In this document: piece after piece, positions 15,525-63,377 of the stretch
Layout of the letters: each line of letters begins with the position of its first letter
How positions within the stretch are numbered: position 1 is the stretch's first letter
Assembly: GCA_902582345.1 (NCBI GenBank)
Contig: CACHRU010000003.1
Span: 1 to 64,000, forward strand
Source of the DNA: an uncultured Pelagibacteraceae bacterium
GTDB taxonomy: Bacteria; Pseudomonadota; Alphaproteobacteria; Pelagibacterales; Pelagibacteraceae
Direction: 5' to 3'
DNA: 64,000 nt
Translations under genes and position numbers: made by a program
The notes under the pieces: model-generated
Told to the model about the DNA's origin: nothing
The model's database searches: none
What the model saw: only the letters and a program-made list of their open reading frames with translations

Positions 15525-15537
15525 ATAATTATTTAAT

Positions 15538-15921
15538 TTAACTTAAATACATAGGTTTAATCAATTTATTTTCTAATTTTTTTTTAATTATTAATTTTTC
15601 AATATTTTCAAGGTTAAAGTTCAATAATTGGTTTTCTTTATATCCATAAATTTTAGCACCTGTTGAAATTTTAATGCCTTTTGCCACACTTAACGAAGTT
15701 CTAATTGATGAAAATTTGCCTGGACCTTGGTTTACAATTATAGAAAACTTATTATCAACAATTGTTTTATTTATTTTTAAAAAATCTAATATAATCTTTG
15801 ATAATAAATCGCTATTATGATGAAATTCTTTTATTTGATGAATGATAAATTTTTTACCTATTTTTAAACCTAAAGTATCTTTTTTGCCTGTGCAATTTAT
15901 TATTAAAAAATTTTTAATCAT
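15538..15921 (-). CDS. tsaB: Shortened TsaB-like protein (tRNA t6A synthesis)
   Basis: TsaB is the ASKHA-fold partner of TsaD in making N6-threonylcarbamoyl-adenosine at A37 of ANN-decoding tRNAs. The N-terminal domain is recognisable: IINCTGKKDTLGLKIGKKF, HHNSDLLSKIILDFL, then GPGKFSSIRTSLSVAKGI, equal to the GPGSFTGxRxGxxxAKGL motif. The protein is only 127 residues against about 230 in E. coli, yet ends with IKPMYLS, like the PxYLR tail of full-length TsaB, suggesting internal loss of the second subdomain rather than a frameshift. The rimI gene usually adjacent is missing. Confidence 0.85.
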   Translation of the reverse strand: MIKNFLIINCTGKKDTLGLKIGKKFIIHQIKEFHHNSDLLSKIILDFLKINKTIVDNKFSIIVNQGPGKFSSIRTSLSVAKGIKISTGAKIYGYKENQLLNFNLENIEKLIIKKKLENKLIKPMYLS

Positions 15922-40587: not shown

Positions 40588-41588
40588 TTACTAAAAGTTA
40601 TATTATTGAAAAATCCTTTGACGAATTAAATAAATTTAAATTAATTTTATTCTACGGAGAAAATGAAGGTTTAAAAAAAAACTTTAGGGATTTAATCAGG
40701 ATTAATTATAAAAATGCTGAAATATTTAATTTATTTCAAGACGAGATCATAAAAGATGAAGAAAAATTATTTAATAATTTGCATAATTCATCTCTTTTTT
40801 ACTCAAAGAAGATATTCTTAATTCAAGAGGCGTCAGATAAAATTTGTGAAATTATGTTAAAAATTTTAGATCAAAATTTTTCAGATGCTAAAATTTTTAT
40901 TTTTTCTAATAATTTAGACAAAAAATCCAAGCTAAGAAGTTTATTTGAAAAGGAGAAAGCGTTAGTTGTAGTGCCTTGTTATGCTGATAATTTTCAAACT
41001 TTAAACTACTACATTAAAAATAAACTAAGAAATTTAAATGGACTAACACCTGAGATTATAAATCTAATAATTGAAAATTCTTCTGGAAAACGTGAAATAG
41101 TTGATAATGAAATAAAAAAAATAACTACATTTTTTGAAAATAAAAAAATTTCATCTGAGGAATTAAATCAATTACTCAACATAAAGTACGATAATGTTTT
41201 TGAAGATTTAAGAGATGCCATTTTTAATGGAAATTTAACTAAATTAAATAAATTAATTTCAGAAACTCAATTCCTTAATGAGGACAATTTTTATTACTTA
41301 AACCAAATATACTTGAGAATTAACAAACTTATCGAAGTTCATGAGATAGATAAGAAAGTTAAAAATTTAGAAAAATCAGTTGAAATGCTCAAACCTAAAA
41401 TTTTTTGGAAAGACAAAAACCAATTTATTCAACAAGCTCGAAAAGTGAATTTATCATTATTAAAAAATATTATAATTGAAATTAGCGATACAGAAATTTT
41501 AATGAAAAAAAATTCCTATATTAGAAGTGATTTACTATTAAAAAAATTAATTATTTCTATAGGCGCTAAAATATCTAGTCACGCTTGA
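40584..41588 (+). CDS. holA: DNA polymerase III delta subunit
   Basis: HolA opens the beta clamp within the clamp-loader complex. The 334-residue protein has the family outline: FKLILFYGENEGLKKNFRDLI near the N-terminus (a non-ATP-binding RecA-like fold), YYIKNKLRNLNGLTPEIINLIIENSSGKREIVDNEIKKI, then a C-terminal helical collar. Divergence is high, so context (leuS-lptE-holA) adds weight. Start is GTG in a GTGA overlap with lptE. The 3' end overlaps convergent parB by 14 nt. Confidence 0.9.
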   Translation: MITKSYIIEKSFDELNKFKLILFYGENEGLKKNFRDLIRINYKNAEIFNLFQDEIIKDEEKLFNNLHNSSLFYSKKIFLIQEASDKICEIMLKILDQNFSDAKIFIFSNNLDKKSKLRSLFEKEKALVVVPCYADNFQTLNYYIKNKLRNLNGLTPEIINLIIENSSGKREIVDNEIKKITTFFENKKISSEELNQLLNIKYDNVFEDLRDAIFNGNLTKLNKLISETQFLNEDNFYYLNQIYLRINKLIEVHEIDKKVKNLEKSVEMLKPKIFWKDKNQFIQQARKVNLSLLKNIIIEISDTEILMKKNSYIRSDLLLKKLIISIGAKISSHA

Positions 41589-42426
41589 GTAATTTTGATA
41601 CAGCATCGAATTGATCTAAATTTTTGTATTCGATTATAATTTTACCAGAATTATTTTTTTTATTAGAGATTGAAACTTTCAAACCAAGCTTATTTTCGAT
41701 CTCATTTTGCTCTTGTATAATATTAGAGTCTTGAGGTGTTAATGATCTGTTTTTTGTTTTTTTTTGTTTAACCAAATTTTCTACTGTTCTTGCGCTCATT
41801 CTTTTTTTTAATATTTCTTCAGCAATACTCGATGCGTTAGGCATACCAACTAAAGGACGGGCCTGACCAGCTGAAATCATACCCTCCTCAATTAAACCTA
41901 TTACGTCAGCTGGTAAAGTTAACAATCTTAAAGTATTACTTATATGACTTCTGCTTTTAGACATCATGTTGGCTATCTTGTCTTGATCGTAACCAAATTC
42001 TTTTGTGAGCCTGTTGTAAGCTTTAGCTTCTTCAACTGCATTTAAGTTTTCTCTTTGTATATTTTCGACTATTGCAATTTCTAACGTTTGGTTGTCGCTT
42101 AAAGTTAGAATTACCACTGGAACTTTATGCAACCCAGCTTTCTGAGCAGCAAGCCAACGTCTTTCTCCTGCAACTATTTCATATTTACCGGGATCTCCTT
42201 TGTCCTCTCTAACGGCTATGGGCTGAATAACACCACTTTGTTTTATCGACTTTGCCAATTCATTTAATTTTTCTTCATCAAAATTAGTTCTAGGTTGATA
42301 TTTATTTCTATTAAGTTCACCTATAGACAAAAATTTTTGGTTACTAATGTTCTCAGAATTTATATCAACCTTTTTTATATCACCAAATAAAGCTGAAAGA
42401 CCTTTACCTAAACCACGTTTATTCAT
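41575..42426 (-). CDS. parB: Chromosome-partitioning protein ParB
   Basis: ParB binds parS, spreads as a CTP-dependent clamp and partners with ParA to segregate the origin. The 283-residue protein starts MNKRGLGKGLSALFGD, typical of chromosomal ParB. The N-terminal CTPase domain contains YEIVAGERRWLAAQKAGLHKVPV and IVENIQRENLNAVEEA; the helix-turn-helix is MMSKSRSHISNTLRLLTLP; a short C-terminal dimerisation domain follows. It overlaps parA by 4 nt. Two parS-like sites lie about 1 kb upstream within rsmG. Confidence 0.97.
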   Translation of the reverse strand: MNKRGLGKGLSALFGDIKKVDINSENISNQKFLSIGELNRNKYQPRTNFDEEKLNELAKSIKQSGVIQPIAVREDKGDPGKYEIVAGERRWLAAQKAGLHKVPVVILTLSDNQTLEIAIVENIQRENLNAVEEAKAYNRLTKEFGYDQDKIANMMSKSRSHISNTLRLLTLPADVIGLIEEGMISAGQARPLVGMPNASSIAEEILKKRMSARTVENLVKQKKTKNRSLTPQDSNIIQEQNEIENKLGLKVSISNKKNNSGKIIIEYKNLDQFDAVSKLLKRD

Positions 42427-43235
42427 GCCGCGCTCCCAATGTTTTCAGATTTTTGATTTAAAAATTCATCAGCTAGTGAAATATAAGATTTACTGCCAGA
42501 GCAGTTTTTATCATAAATTACGCATGGCATTCCATGTGAGGGAGCTTCTGATAATCTTACGTTTCTTGGAATTACAGAGTCGTACACTTTGTCTTTAAAA
42601 AAAGATCTTGCCTCTTTATCTACCTGACTAGATAATTTATTTCTTTTATCGAACATTGTTAGAAGTATGCCTCTGATCGATAAATTCGGATTAAGATTTA
42701 TTTTGATTCTATCAATGGTTTTAACAAGCTGAGTAATTCCTTCTAGGGCAAAAAATTCTGTTTGTAATGGAACCAAAATTTCATTTGCCGCCACTAAAGA
42801 CATTATCGTAAGCAAGCTTAATGACGGAGGACAATCAATAAAAATAATATCATAATTTTTTATGTCGTTAAGATTATTAGTTAAAATCTCTTTCAACAGG
42901 TATGCTCTATTTGTGTCATTCGCTGTTTCAACTTCTAAACCAGATAAATTAACATTAGACCCAATCAAATCTAGACCGCTTATAGCTGAGGAGTTTATGC
43001 ATTGAGAAAGTTTACGTTTGCCAATCAAAATATTATAAATATTACTAGCTTCATCGTTGTTGGATTTGCCAAGACCAGTTGTAGCATTTCCTTGAGGGTC
43101 CAAATCAATTACTAATATGTTTTTGCCTTTTTGAGCTAATGCAGCTGCCAGATTAATCACGGTAGTTGTTTTCCCTACTCCACCTTTTTGATTAATAACT
43201 GATATAATTTTTTTACTCACATTAATAAGCTTCAA
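42423..43235 (-). CDS. parA: Chromosome-partitioning ATPase ParA (Soj)
   Basis: A Walker-type ATPase that drives ParB-parS movement. The deviant Walker A is VINQKGGVGKTTTVINLAAALA, with IDLDPQGNATTGLG and DIIFIDCPPSLSLLT as the further signatures. At 270 residues it is a small chromosomal ParA lacking an N-terminal DNA-binding extension. It overlaps rsmG by 14 nt and parB by 4 nt in the mnmG-rsmG-parA-parB operon, as in most alphaproteobacteria. Confidence 0.98.
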   Translation of the reverse strand: MKLINVSKKIISVINQKGGVGKTTTVINLAAALAQKGKNILVIDLDPQGNATTGLGKSNNDEASNIYNILIGKRKLSQCINSSAISGLDLIGSNVNLSGLEVETANDTNRAYLLKEILTNNLNDIKNYDIIFIDCPPSLSLLTIMSLVAANEILVPLQTEFFALEGITQLVKTIDRIKINLNPNLSIRGILLTMFDKRNKLSSQVDKEARSFFKDKVYDSVIPRNVRLSEAPSHGMPCVIYDKNCSGSKSYISLADEFLNQKSENIGSAA

Positions 43236-43845
43236 TTATAAGTATTTTTGAACTTTTCTCAGTCACGCTATCATTTAGCTTATACTTAAAAGTAAAGTTC
43301 ATTAAAGCTTTATTTACCTCTGCCTGTGCATCTTTTCCTTTTAAAATGATTATTTTATGCGGTTTTTTACAATTTTCACGTGAAATTTTCAAAATTTCCT
43401 CTAATTTGCGGAATGCTCTACAGACAATAATATCAGAATTGATTTTATTTGACCTTAAATCTCCCTCGATTACCTTACATTGATTTATTTTAAGCTTTTT
43501 TATAGTTTTTCTTAAAAAATCACACTTTACGCTGGATTTTTCATACAATTTCACGTGAAAAGATTTGCTCTTATTTGCTATAGCTAAAATTAAACCTGGA
43601 AATCCTCCACCTGTGCCGAGATCCGATAAAGAACTACCTTCCTTAAATTTAAAAAAAGCCAATAACTGTGCGGAGTCTAGCACGTGTCTATGCAATATGC
43701 TTTTTTCGGTTGATTTTGATATCAAATTATATTTTTTGTTAAAATACAAAAGTTCTCGACAAAATTTACTTATCTTATCGATATCATTTACACTGAAATT
43801 ATAAGTATTTTTTAATTTATCGCTTATATATTCATTTGATATCAA
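43222..43845 (-). CDS. rsmG: 16S rRNA m7G527 methyltransferase RsmG (GidB)
   Basis: RsmG methylates G527 of 16S rRNA with SAM. Signatures are [31 protein letters not shown] and [19 protein letters not shown] (SAM-binding GxGxGFPG), then [15 protein letters not shown]. The 207-residue length is normal. The gene body contains two perfect TTTCACGTGAAA palindromes that fall in different reading frames. It overlaps both mnmG (4 nt) and parA (14 nt). Confidence 0.97.
43374..43385. promoter_or_regulatory. parS: parS-like centromere site 1
   Basis: The perfect palindrome TTTCACGTGAAA is the core of the bacterial parS consensus TGTTTCACGTGAAACA. It lies within rsmG, about 140 bp before parA. Here it is read in the frame that gives Ile-Ser-Arg-Glu. 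Confidence 0.85.
43549..43560. promoter_or_regulatory. parS: parS-like centromere site 2
   Basis: A second TTTCACGTGAAA palindrome, 175 bp from the first and also in rsmG. Here the reading frame gives Phe-His-Val-Lys, a different frame from site 1, so the repeated 12-mer is conserved at DNA level and not because of a shared peptide. Confidence 0.85.
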
Positions 43846-48244: not shown

Positions 48245-50347
48245 ATGAATACTAACTTTTTAAATAGTGTAACAAATTTTTTGAAAAAACGAACCTTTGA
48301 GTTTATCGGTTTACTGCTAATTTTTTTAGGTATAGCGCTTTCAATATCTTTTGCGACATATTCACCAGGTGATCCGACTTTTGTTTATGGAGAAAGTATC
48401 TATATCGAAAACTTCTTTGGAATTTATGGAAGTACAATATCTGACTTTTTACTTCAGAGCTTTGGGTTAATTTCTTTTTTATTGCTATTAACTTTGATTT
48501 CTTGGGGAGTAAAATTAGTTAAAGATAAAAAAATTGAAAAAATTATATTTAAATTTTCTTTTTTAACAATTTATCTCATAACTGGTTGTACTTTTATTTA
48601 CTCAAAATTTAATAACTCTTTTTGGTTAATAGATAATGGAAATGCTGGATTTGTTGGGGAGAAGATTTATGAATTTATAAAATTTTATTTACCTATCTCT
48701 GAAAATGAATATTTAAGCTTACTATTTGTATTGTTAACGTTTGCTTTTTTTATTTTAGCATCTGGGATAAATCTTATTTTTTTCTCAAAAAATTTATTAA
48801 AATTTGTTTTAAATTCATTCAGAAGAAAAAATATTAACGGGTCTGAACAAACTAGAGTAGATCTAAATAATAATTATAACAGTCAAAATGAAAATAAAGA
48901 GCTTTCACAACAGTCATTTTTGTTTTCAAAAGATAAGGAAATTATAAATGAAAATGTTAAGGAAAAAAATACGATAACTTTTAAACTCCCATCAATTGAT
49001 TTGCTTGAGGAAAATGTATCAAAAACTGGAAAAGTGCAGACTAATAAAAACAAACCTAATGCGGAATTCATGGAAAAAGTTTTGTTAGATTTCGGCATAG
49101 ACGGGAAAATTAGAAAAATTAACAACGGTCCAGTTGTAAGTTTATACGAATTTGAGCCTGCTCCTGGTGTCAAAGTCTCTAAGATTATTAATTTATCAGA
49201 TGATTTGGCGAGAAATACGAGTTCAACTTCAACAAGGGTTTCGGTTATACCAGGAAAAAGCACTGTGGGAATAGAAATACCTAACGATAATCGTGAAGAA
49301 GTTTTCTTAAGAGAAATTATTTCTAACGAACGATTTACTAGAAAAGAAATAAAGCTACCAATTGCACTTGGTAAGAGTATTTCTGGGGCACCGATAATTG
49401 GTGATCTAACTTCAATGCCACATCTTTTAATTGCTGGCACTACTGGTTCTGGTAAATCGGTATGTATTAACACTATTATTGTTTCTTTGCTTTTCAAACT
49501 AGACCCGAACTTATGCAAATTAATTTTGATTGATCCTAAAATGCTTGAACTAACAGCTTATGAGGGTATTCCCCACTTATTAACTCCTGTAATAACAGAT
49601 GCAAAAAAAGCAACATCCGCTCTAGGTTGGGCGGTTAAAGAGATGAATAGTAGATATAAATTAATGAGTAAAGTTGGTGTACGAAATATAGATGGATACA
49701 ATTCTAAGCACAAACTCAAAATGCCATACATTGTTTTAATAGTAGATGAAATGTCTGATTTAATGCTTGTAGCTGGAAAAGAGATTGAAAATTATATTCA
49801 AAAACTCTCACAAATGGCTAGAGCTGCAGGTATACATATTATAATGGCAACTCAAAGACCAAGCGTAGATGTAATAACAGGGACAATAAAAGCAAATTTT
49901 CCGACAAGAATTTCATTCCAAGTTAGCTCAAAAATTGACAGCAGAACTATTTTAGGAGAACAAGGAGCAGAACAATTGCTAGGAAAAGGAGATATGTTAT
50001 TTATGTCTTCAGCTAACAGAATCGTAAGAATTCATGGTCCTTATGTATCAGAAAGTGAAATTGAGAGAATAACAAGCATATTAAGAGCTCAGGGAGAGCC
50101 GGACTATATAGATGAAATAACCTCAAATGAACAGAACGTTTCAGGTGATCAAGTTAATGAAGGAGAAGAAGACGAACTATACAATCAAGCCTTAGAAATA
50201 ATTAAACAAGAGGGCAAAGCCTCAACGAGCTTCCTTCAAAGAAAACTCCAAATTGGATATAACAGAGCGGCTAGAATTATTGATATGATGGAAGAAAAAG
50301 GTATTGTCAGTAAAGCAAATCATGTTGGGAAACGTGAAGTTCTGTAA
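48245..50347 (+). CDS. ftsK: DNA translocase FtsK
   Basis: FtsK pumps DNA at the septum and coordinates dimer resolution with division. The 700-residue protein has about four N-terminal membrane helices (about 18-180), a short linker (about 190-270), the RecA-like motor with Walker A LLIAGTTGSGKSVCINTI and Walker B YIVLIVDEMSDLM, and a C-terminal gamma winged helix (about 635-700: YNQALEIIKQEGKASTSFLQRKLQIGYNRAARIIDMMEEKGIV) that reads KOPS. The linker is far shorter than in E. coli. lolA begins within its last codons. Confidence 0.97.
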   Translation: MNTNFLNSVTNFLKKRTFEFIGLLLIFLGIALSISFATYSPGDPTFVYGESIYIENFFGIYGSTISDFLLQSFGLISFLLLLTLISWGVKLVKDKKIEKIIFKFSFLTIYLITGCTFIYSKFNNSFWLIDNGNAGFVGEKIYEFIKFYLPISENEYLSLLFVLLTFAFFILASGINLIFFSKNLLKFVLNSFRRKNINGSEQTRVDLNNNYNSQNENKELSQQSFLFSKDKEIINENVKEKNTITFKLPSIDLLEENVSKTGKVQTNKNKPNAEFMEKVLLDFGIDGKIRKINNGPVVSLYEFEPAPGVKVSKIINLSDDLARNTSSTSTRVSVIPGKSTVGIEIPNDNREEVFLREIISNERFTRKEIKLPIALGKSISGAPIIGDLTSMPHLLIAGTTGSGKSVCINTIIVSLLFKLDPNLCKLILIDPKMLELTAYEGIPHLLTPVITDAKKATSALGWAVKEMNSRYKLMSKVGVRNIDGYNSKHKLKMPYIVLIVDEMSDLMLVAGKEIENYIQKLSQMARAAGIHIIMATQRPSVDVITGTIKANFPTRISFQVSSKIDSRTILGEQGAEQLLGKGDMLFMSSANRIVRIHGPYVSESEIERITSILRAQGEPDYIDEITSNEQNVSGDQVNEGEEDELYNQALEIIKQEGKASTSFLQRKLQIGYNRAARIIDMMEEKGIVSKANHVGKREVL

Positions 50348-60692: not shown

Positions 60693-61272
60693 TTTCGTGT
60701 AATTTAATATAGTTCAAAATTTGAGTGATAGGCAAACCCATAATTGAGTTTCTATCACCTTTAAAATATTCAAAAAGATTTAAACCATCAGCCTCGATTT
60801 GATACACTCCATAAGCTAAAAGAGTTTCTGTTTGAATTCTATCCAAATAGTTTTTAAGCTGACTATCTTGAAAACTTTTCATTTTAAGTTCAGATTTGTC
60901 TGTATAATTCCATATCATAGATCCATTTTTTGAAATGCAAACAGAACTAATCAAAAAGTGAATTTTTCCATTAAGCCTTTTTAATATTGTGAAAGCTTCT
61001 GATCGATCTTTTGGTTTATTAATAATTTGATTATTTAATGAGACAACACTGTCAGCGCCAAGAACCATTTCATTCGGAAATTTTTTACTTATCTTAGTTG
61101 ATTTTAATTCTGCTAAATTTTTTGATATTATTTCTGGATTTGCTCCCTCGGCAAGTAAAGAAACTTTTGCTTGATCTTCATCAACATTCGAAGGAACTGC
61201 TTCACATTGTATTTTGTTGTCTTCTAAAATCTTCTTTCTTACGCCACTTTTTGAAGCTAAAATAATTTTCAT
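60685..61272 (-). CDS. maf: Maf-like nucleotide pyrophosphatase
   Basis: Maf proteins hydrolyse non-canonical or modified nucleoside triphosphates; the subclass here (dTTP/UTP or m7GTP type) is not certain. The signatures are ILASKSGVRKKILEDNKIQCEAVPSNVDE, VLGADSVVSLNNQIINKPKDRSEAFTILKRLNGKIHFLISSVCI and GVYQIEADGLNLFEYFKGDRNSIMGLPI. The 195-residue protein overlaps the PPDK-regulator gene by 4 nt and aroE by 8 nt. Confidence 0.95.
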   Translation of the reverse strand: MKIILASKSGVRKKILEDNKIQCEAVPSNVDEDQAKVSLLAEGANPEIISKNLAELKSTKISKKFPNEMVLGADSVVSLNNQIINKPKDRSEAFTILKRLNGKIHFLISSVCISKNGSMIWNYTDKSELKMKSFQDSQLKNYLDRIQTETLLAYGVYQIEADGLNLFEYFKGDRNSIMGLPITQILNYIKLHENE

Positions 61273-62090
61273 TTACTTTTCTGTATATCATATATTTTTA
61301 TGATAGACGCTGCTGTTTCCTCAACTGATTTTCGTGTGACGTCGATTGTGGGCCAATTGTATCTTTTAAATAATTTTTTTGAGTCATCTACCTCTTTTTC
61401 AATGGATTGGAGATTGGTGTATTTTGATATATTTTTTTCATTCATAATATTAACTCTATTACGCCTTATATCCGATAAACGCTGAGGATCAGCGTAAAGA
61501 CCTACAACGCAGACTTTTAAACTGGGCAACTTCAATTTGTCGGGAATCTCTTGATCAAGAACTAGGGGTATATTCATAGTTTTAAACCCCCTGTTAGCAA
61601 GATATATAGATGTCGGAGTTTTGCTTGTCCTGCTTACACCAAGCAATATTATATCAGATTTTTCTATATCAACTGATTTTTTACCATCATCATGACTCAT
61701 AGTGAATTGGATGGCTTCCATTCTTTTATAATAATCTTCATCTAAAACGTGTTGAGCACTAGGTTTGTGAGATGCTTTTTGATTAAGTAATTTTGAGAAA
61801 TTTAAAATCAAACTTCCGAGCACTCCGAAACAAGGTATTTTATTTTCCTCGCTCTTCTTCGTAAGATATTTAGCAAGTTTTGTTTCAACAATTGTATACA
61901 AAACGATAGAGTTCTCATTATTTTTACAATCACTTAAAATTTTATCAATTTGCTGCTCAGTTCTGACAAAAACAAATTCTCTCTTTCTATGTTCAAAATT
62001 TTTAAATTGTGATTTAAGAGAGAGAAAAATTCTATCAAGTGTTTCACCTGTTGAGTCCGATATTAAATAAACATTATAATTTATACCCAT
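61269..62090 (-). CDS. Pyruvate phosphate dikinase regulatory protein (DUF299 kinase/pyrophosphorylase)
   Basis: This 273-residue DUF299 protein is a bifunctional ADP-dependent kinase and Pi-dependent pyrophosphorylase that inactivates or reactivates PPDK or PEP synthase. The N-terminal VYLISDSTGETLDRIFLSL and the P-loop DIILLGVSRTSKTPTSIYLANRG are typical, as is CVVGLYADPQRLSDIRRNR. The target enzyme is not in this window. It is the first gene left of the candidate oriC; its orthologues occupy the same place beside the origin and hemE in Caulobacter and Rickettsia. Confidence 0.94.
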   Translation of the reverse strand: MGINYNVYLISDSTGETLDRIFLSLKSQFKNFEHRKREFVFVRTEQQIDKILSDCKNNENSIVLYTIVETKLAKYLTKKSEENKIPCFGVLGSLILNFSKLLNQKASHKPSAQHVLDEDYYKRMEAIQFTMSHDDGKKSVDIEKSDIILLGVSRTSKTPTSIYLANRGFKTMNIPLVLDQEIPDKLKLPSLKVCVVGLYADPQRLSDIRRNRVNIMNEKNISKYTNLQSIEKEVDDSKKLFKRYNWPTIDVTRKSVEETAASIIKIYDIQKSK

Positions 62091-62363
62091 TTTACTGTTA
62101 GCAAACCTTTATAATCAAACATTTATACATAAATCTTATAAATCAGCTTAAAGATATTAACATGAATTAACAAAGTTCTAACATTTTATTGTCTGTTAAT
62201 AGTTAAATCTCTTGTTTTTGTGCATTGTTAATAAAAATTAAAAAGAGTGAAAATTTGAAATATTTTAAGTGAATAAAATATGTAAAACTATGTATAAATA
62301 TTTATTTTATATAACAACATGCCCTATTACTAATAATATCAATATATATATAATTATATAATA
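62091..62363. other. Candidate chromosomal replication origin (oriC)
   Basis: This is the longest intergenic gap in the window (273 bp). It lies between the DUF299 gene and hemE, the conserved origin location in Caulobacter and Rickettsia. It contains an 11-bp inverted repeat ATTTATACATA (62121-62131) and TATGTATAAAT (62289-62299), each including a 9-mer that differs from the DnaA box TTATNCACA at one base. Several GTTAA/TTAAC motifs occur (TTAACATGAATTAAC at 62158). An extremely AT-rich tract (62327-62363) could be the unwinding element. Flanking genes point outward. No perfect DnaA box was found. Confidence 0.68.
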
Positions 62364-63377
62364 ATGAACTCTTTATTAGAATGTTTGAATAAAAAATTAC
62401 CTAAAGTTACACCTATATGGTTTATGAGACAAGCTGGAAGATATTTGCCTGAGTTTAGAAAAATTAGATCTAAAAATAGTAATTTTATTAATTTATGTTT
62501 AGATGTTGACTTAAGTTCGGAAATTACAATACAACCCATTAAAAGATTTGACTTAGATGCCGCAATAATTTTTTCTGATATTCTATTAGTACCATACGCG
62601 ATGAATCAAGAGGTAAAATTCAAAGAAGATATAGGTCCGGTTTTGTCAGATTTTAGTTTAAAGAAGTTTAACCTCATCAAAACTAGCGATTTTAAAGAAA
62701 AACTTTCTCCCGTTTATAAATCATTAACCAAAACAAGGAAAAATTTAAACTCAGAAAAATCACTGATAGCTTTTTCGGGTGCACCATGGACATTATTGGT
62801 TTATATGCTTAATTTAAAAAGCTCCGAAAACAGATTAAACGAAACTTTTTTTTCAAAGAAAAAACTTCTAAACCAAACAATTAATAAGTTAACCGAATTT
62901 ATTTGTTTACACTTAGATAATCAAATTAATGCTGGAGCTGATATTATCCAAATTTTTGACTCTTGGGCAGGATTAATTCCATATGAGAGTTTAGATGAAT
63001 ATTGCATTAAACCAAATATGAAAATTGTAAACTATTTTAAAAAGAAAGGTGTTCCTGTCATATGCTTTCCTAAAGGTTTGAAAAATAATTATAAAAAATT
63101 TAATGATGTTGTTTCTCCTGATGGTCTCAATATTGATTATGAAATTGATCCTATTTGGGCAAGAGAAAATCTTTTTAATACTTGTTTGCAAGGTGGAATG
63201 CATCCAGAAATTTTGTTAGGAGATGAAAAAGTCATAATAAATGAGGTTGAAAAATATATGAAAACATTTAAAGAACAACCATATATTTTTAATCTTGGGC
63301 ATGGTATTTTACCTCAAACCAATCCTGAGGTTTTGCAAAATATAATAAAAAAGGTTAAATCTTTCAATGACAGATAA
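62364..63377 (+). CDS. hemE: Uroporphyrinogen III decarboxylase
   Basis: HemE converts uroporphyrinogen III to coproporphyrinogen III in heme synthesis. The 337-residue protein has the N-terminal signature PIWFMRQAGRYLPEFRKIR with the substrate-binding arginines, AAIIFSDILLVPYAMNQEV with the catalytic Asp, FSGAPWTLLVYML, and NLGHGILPQTNPEVL at the end. It is the first gene right of the candidate oriC and overlaps hemH by 11 nt. Confidence 0.98.
   Translation: MNSLLECLNKKLPKVTPIWFMRQAGRYLPEFRKIRSKNSNFINLCLDVDLSSEITIQPIKRFDLDAAIIFSDILLVPYAMNQEVKFKEDIGPVLSDFSLKKFNLIKTSDFKEKLSPVYKSLTKTRKNLNSEKSLIAFSGAPWTLLVYMLNLKSSENRLNETFFSKKKLLNQTINKLTEFICLHLDNQINAGADIIQIFDSWAGLIPYESLDEYCIKPNMKIVNYFKKKGVPVICFPKGLKNNYKKFNDVVSPDGLNIDYEIDPIWARENLFNTCLQGGMHPEILLGDEKVIINEVEKYMKTFKEQPYIFNLGHGILPQTNPEVLQNIIKKVKSFNDR

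Follow-up and report, generated by a model that had tools for sequence, protein, structure and literature searches.

The intergenic region between hemE and a gene of the COG1806 (DUF299) family is the classical alphaproteobacterial origin site, and the locus itself is in that sense already known (PMC1914354). In Caulobacter crescentus this region, Cori, spans 404 bp, and the hemE–COG1806 spacers that serve as origins in Rickettsia measure 383–396 bp (PMC1914354). A literature search, with predicted-origin databases (e.g., DoriC) outside its reach, returned no published SAR11 origin at the hemE–DUF299 locus, and the portion seen of one study in which the terminus was fitted from coverage gives no origin position (PMC9589681).

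We analyzed a 64-kb stretch of DNA (hereafter, the window; C3:1–64000) from a 978-kb draft genome in 27 contigs, which belongs to a SAR11-type member of the Pelagibacteraceae. We hold it to be very probable that the intergenic region between DUF299 and hemE in this window (hereafter, the gap; Table 1) is the chromosomal replication origin, oriC, of the bacterium. Like Cori, it lies between hemE and COG1806/DUF299 in the same divergent arrangement, with DnaA boxes, an AT-rich tract and, as seen on the SAR11 side in closed relatives, parS nearby. Unlike Cori, it is only 273 bp long (PMC1914354), lacks both TTAA-N7-TTAA and GANTC, and has boxes that are mostly TTATNAACA-like. The Rickettsia origins share its boundary genes and a very AT-rich spacer (∼82% AT) (PMC1914354), but the SAR11 gap is shorter than these too, and SAR11 relatives can replace either boundary gene while the spacer is kept. 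We file the gap under DnaA-type oriCs of the hemE–COG1806 locus rather than with the CtrA-regulated Cori.

The gap and its flanks across the family

A sequence-only reading of the window had proposed a replication origin here because the gene context matched that of Caulobacter and Rickettsia, and the DUF299–gap–hemE order is indeed that of the published locus (PMC1914354). Transcription diverges from the gap as that reading described, with five genes running leftward (DUF299, maf, aroE, coaE, and an RNase_T/dnaQ-like gene) and four rightward (hemE, hemH, a UPF0093/hemJ-like gene, and lastly rho). The gap was also said to be the largest in the window, which is correct when ORFs with protein support are counted, on a contig with a coding share of 97%; a strict gene caller leaves one nominally longer stretch (15525–15841), but this contains a 127-aa ORF without an assigned family. 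The gap is 82% AT, versus ∼70% in the window, and the AT-rich, unwinding-like tract noted near hemE is readily located (Table 1). No Rfam RNA was found by search in the window, gap included.

Table 1. Features of the candidate origin region and related elements (window positions unless a contig is given)
Feature	Position	Strand	Details
parB	41575–42426	−	ParB_N 1.3e-34, HTH_ParB 5.9e-30
parA	42423–43235	−	AAA_31 2.5e-60
parS-like core TTTCACGTGAAA, inside rsmG	43374–43385		exact palindrome; two copies only in genome
Second parS-like core TTTCACGTGAAA, inside rsmG	43549–43560		exact palindrome; two copies only in genome
DUF299/PPSR (COG1806, Kinase-PPPase PF03618), left boundary gene	61269–62090	−	Pfam 3.6e-89
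Candidate oriC, whole DUF299–hemE intergenic region	62091–62363		273 bp exactly
DnaA-box-like TTATACATA	62123–62131	+	1 mismatch to TTATNCACA
DnaA-box-like ATATTAACA, opens phased left series	62154–62162	+	1 mismatch to TTATNMACA; ATTAACA conserved in genus
Weak DnaA-box-like GAATTAACA, 10 bp downstream from ATATTAACA box	62164–62172	+	differs from TTATNMACA at 2 positions; conserved column in genus
DnaA-box-like CTATTAACA	62194–62202	−	1 mismatch to TTATNMACA
DnaA-box-like TTATTAACA	62226–62234	−	exact TTATNMACA
DnaA-box-like TTATTCACT, opens phased set of three near hemE	62268–62276	−	1 mismatch to TTATNCACA
Weak DnaA-box-like TTTTACATA, middle box of this set, 11 bp further	62279–62287	−	2 mismatches
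DnaA-box-like TTATACATA, last box of this set, 10 bp further	62289–62297	−	1 mismatch to TTATNCACA; TGTATAA conserved in most g1 members
Weak terminal box ATAACAACA	62311–62319	+	perfect TTATTCACA at same place in several g6 (Pelagibacter) genomes
DnaA-trio-like run CTATTACTAATAATA (speculative)	62324–62338	+	five NTN triplets after TGCC spacer
AT-rich unwinding-like tract	62331–62363		single G/C base in 33 bp, beside hemE
hemE (URO-D PF01208), right boundary gene	62364–63377	+	Pfam URO-D 2e-90
dif-like palindrome	G000:C4:45673–45691 (locus L301)		same place in 13 relatives

The gap keeps its size across the family. Wherever both flanks are retained (genera g1, g6, g7, g8, and g9), it measures 255–286 bp, and the DUF299 and hemE proteins range down to ∼45%–55% identity across the same five genera; within g1, the genus of the window, it is 268–286 bp long and can be aligned over its full length. 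In genus g5, hemE is absent from the locus and rho directly follows the gap. In the sister family f2 (L022–L031), the genomes searched yielded no DUF299; maf stands in its place, and the gap is 271–279 bp where the hemE start is clear.

Given that the gap sits between divergent genes and must also hold the promoters of both DUF299 and hemE, it could be nothing but a divergent promoter or operator region for this pair. However, gap size and terminal elements are retained after loss of either neighbor, with rho in place of hemE or maf in place of DUF299, and this makes the gap hard to read as the promoter of one neighbor. The enrichment and phasing of DnaA boxes and the positions of skew, parS, and terminus, all described below, also speak for an origin, and we regard a purely regulatory role as extremely improbable.

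Several side observations concern these flanks. Two g5 genomes (G041 and G044; L145:19682 onward) carry, at a distance of roughly half the chromosome, a divergent URO-D homolog of 29%–30% identity that may replace the lost hemE. DnaA-box-like motifs are clearer in the f2 gap than in the genus of the window. In one genome (G152:C1:358203–359203), the hemE beside the origin is spread over two frames with in-frame stops, reflecting a frameshift or a sequencing error.

DnaA boxes and control elements

DnaA boxes were counted against the E. coli consensus TTATNCACA with at most one mismatch, and expectations were taken from dinucleotide shuffles. The boxes of the window's own gap are degenerate. 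Four occur versus 0.99 in shuffles (P = 0.016), and there is one exact TTATNMACA versus 0.15 expected (P = 0.14), so that the excess is modest in this gap alone; it is strong together with the relatives. In 58 distinct gaps from six genera of Pelagibacteraceae, 223 boxes were observed versus 41.8 expected (sd 6.4, maximum 59), counts that are not independent because the gap sequences are related. The variant TTATNMACA, which was picked after viewing the alignment, occurs 142 times in the family gaps versus 8.8 expected. Spacing is also nonrandom: there are 42 pairs of same-strand boxes 10–11 bp apart versus 1.2 expected, with more peaks at 22–23 and 31 bp, corresponding to one, two, and three helical turns.

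In a spacer this rich in AT, DnaA-like motifs could arise as chance matches, and both the small excess in the window and a DnaA-trio run that is not above chance (see below) would fit this. Yet shuffling the family gaps yields about 42 boxes against the 223 present, even if the latter come from related sequences, and helical spacing is strongly enriched; chance is thus a reading to which we assign almost no probability.

Within genomes, the gap has the highest box count of any intergenic region on the window's contig. In the closed Pelagibacter genome G046, the gap holds four boxes and again heads the list when the 128 intergenic regions ≥120 bp long are ranked. It has four exact TTATNMACA, a number matched by no other 284-bp window in 1.14 Mb (the next best has two). 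Under looser counts in G046 (near-consensus boxes anywhere, coding sequence included), several other windows equal or exceed the gap, and its top rank is therefore limited to intergenic regions and to the exact variant.

The box, short GC-bearing spacer, and trinucleotide-like run ahead of the AT-rich tract resemble the bacterial basal unwinding system. Using the published definition (at least three (.A.) trios within 0–16 bp of a DnaA box; PMC8287927), the trio run had a mean length of 2.73 across 66 gaps versus 2.74 in shuffles, although a perfect (CTA)4 is present in one genome of f2. Because the run is at chance level across the order, we do not claim membership in the DnaA-trio basal unwinding system.

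Pattern searches of the gap found no CtrA site (TTAA-N7-TTAA, both strands) and no GANTC (CcrM) site. This is in line with the reported absence of a ctrA ortholog from Pelagibacter (PMC2877005), and control of initiation must therefore differ from that in Caulobacter. The IHF pattern WATCAN5WTR has one match, at 62113, a possible IHF site.

GC skew, parS, and dnaA

GC skew is weak in Pelagibacteraceae, and single measures vary. In three closed relatives, the raw GC-skew origin falls near the gap: at 308 kb versus 335.6 kb in G046, 1074 kb versus 1090.2 kb in G045, and 146 kb versus 141.4 kb in G041. These placements assume that origin and terminus lie opposite each other, and they draw on a nearly complete G046 (1.14 of 1.31 Mb) and on G045 and G041 each sampled at about one third. 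In the skew fit, the score of the gap is matched by only 0.6%–3.6% of positions. G041 is informative because its hemE, at 718 kb, sits nearly opposite, whereas the skew origin remains with the DUF299 gap. Gene-strand bias in closed relatives also points to the gap. No stable origin emerged from fourfold-site or TA skew in either G041 or G045. On the window's own contig, where local skew is weak, the cumulative minimum is at ∼91 kb and not at 62 kb; the gap is nonetheless marked by a shift in raw skew and in gene strand.

The position of parS is evidence for an origin at the gap that is independent of skew. The sequence-only reading had placed parABS, mnmEG, and rsmG in the same domain as the gap, and the genes are as described, with parA, parB, rsmG, mnmG, and mnmE at 41.6–47.1 kb, 15–21 kb to the left. 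The parS component holds only in part: the window contains no canonical parS and instead has the shortened 12-bp core TTTCACGTGAAA. Indeed, the canonical 16-bp site was not found in genera g1 and g9, except for one degenerate match in G058, and each genome of these genera has exactly two TTTCACGTGAAA cores, 169–175 bp apart (14 of 14). Closed genomes of g5–g8 carry parS in full or with a single base changed, and each of the 11 closed genomes has a match to TGTTNCACGTGNAACA (at most one mismatch) 7.3–19.6 kb from its gap.

In closed relatives, dnaA is found 60–72 kb from the gap and is always transcribed outward. In g6 and g8 it lies to the hemE side; in g5 and g7 it lies to the DUF299 side. 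Many bacteria initiate replication beside dnaA, and if SAR11 did so the gap would be something else. Some observations lean this way: in two closed genomes single measures fail to separate the gap from dnaA; third-position GC skew barely distinguishes the two places in G046 and G041; strand bias in G045 slightly favors dnaA; and G046 has a cluster of four near-consensus boxes ∼4 kb from dnaA. However, G045 favors the gap by GC3 (bootstrap 0.994) and G041 by strand bias (1.000), and parS is 7–20 kb from the gap but >45 kb from dnaA. Furthermore, the switching of dnaA between sides at near-constant distance is the pattern expected from rearrangements about an origin at the gap. We consider an origin beside dnaA very unlikely. 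The proposal of an origin between DUF299 and hemE is instead supported by a conserved box array that survives replacement of either flank, by raw skew origins near the gap, and by parS close by in every closed genome.

The opposite pole and a model of initiation

Roughly opposite the gap lies a single gene for an Xer-like tyrosine recombinase, with an additional recombinase in a few genomes. In three genomes of known length, its offset from the exact opposite point is 8.4, 26.6, and 17.7 kb, or 0.6%–2.2% of the chromosome. The protein has ∼305–334 aa and scores far under the NCBIfam cut-offs for XerC, XerD, and XerS. Just before its start codon is a dif-like palindrome (∼TTACTAAYGATAATTAATKGTTATCRATAGTAA), essentially unique in the 14 of 14 genomes searched. 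No dif/Xer system was reported in P. ubique (PMC2731167). Judged by sequence, gene and palindrome look like a single-recombinase system, comparable to XerS/difSL and XerH/difH. The likely promoter of the gene overlaps this palindrome, which might alternatively be an autoregulatory operator. FtsK, full length and with its gamma domain, is retained in the window at 48245–50347, which would fit a functional dif/Xer partner at the terminus.

The location and conservation of the gap, its box array and the spacing of the boxes, and, in relatives, its place with respect to skew, parS, dnaA, and terminus are direct observations; from these we infer that the gap binds DnaA, contains the opening site, and acts as the origin. 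DnaA would bind the degenerate boxes (TTAT-N-A/C-ACA) in helically phased groups and would then open the AT-rich tract beside hemE; which way opening proceeds and what each box contributes are likewise inferred. Helicases would be loaded after opening, forks would depart both ways, and the ParB-bound parS sites, ∼19 kb from the gap, would be segregated early.

On balance, we favor the view that the SAR11 origin represents a minimal, CtrA-free alphaproteobacterial type. It would be characterized by a constant spacer of ∼270 bp and phased boxes that have drifted to TTAT-N-A/C-ACA, would remain intact despite loss of either neighbor, and would be paired with a single-recombinase Xer/dif module at the opposite pole.

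SAR11 bacteria, which number among the ocean's most abundant cells, are hard to manipulate, and metagenomic estimates of their growth rates depend on origin-to-terminus gradients in copy number. An origin defined by sequence and a candidate marker for the terminus, both conserved family-wide, would give these estimates fixed reference points in fragmentary genomes. Together, they illustrate what origin control may look like in Alphaproteobacteria without CtrA.
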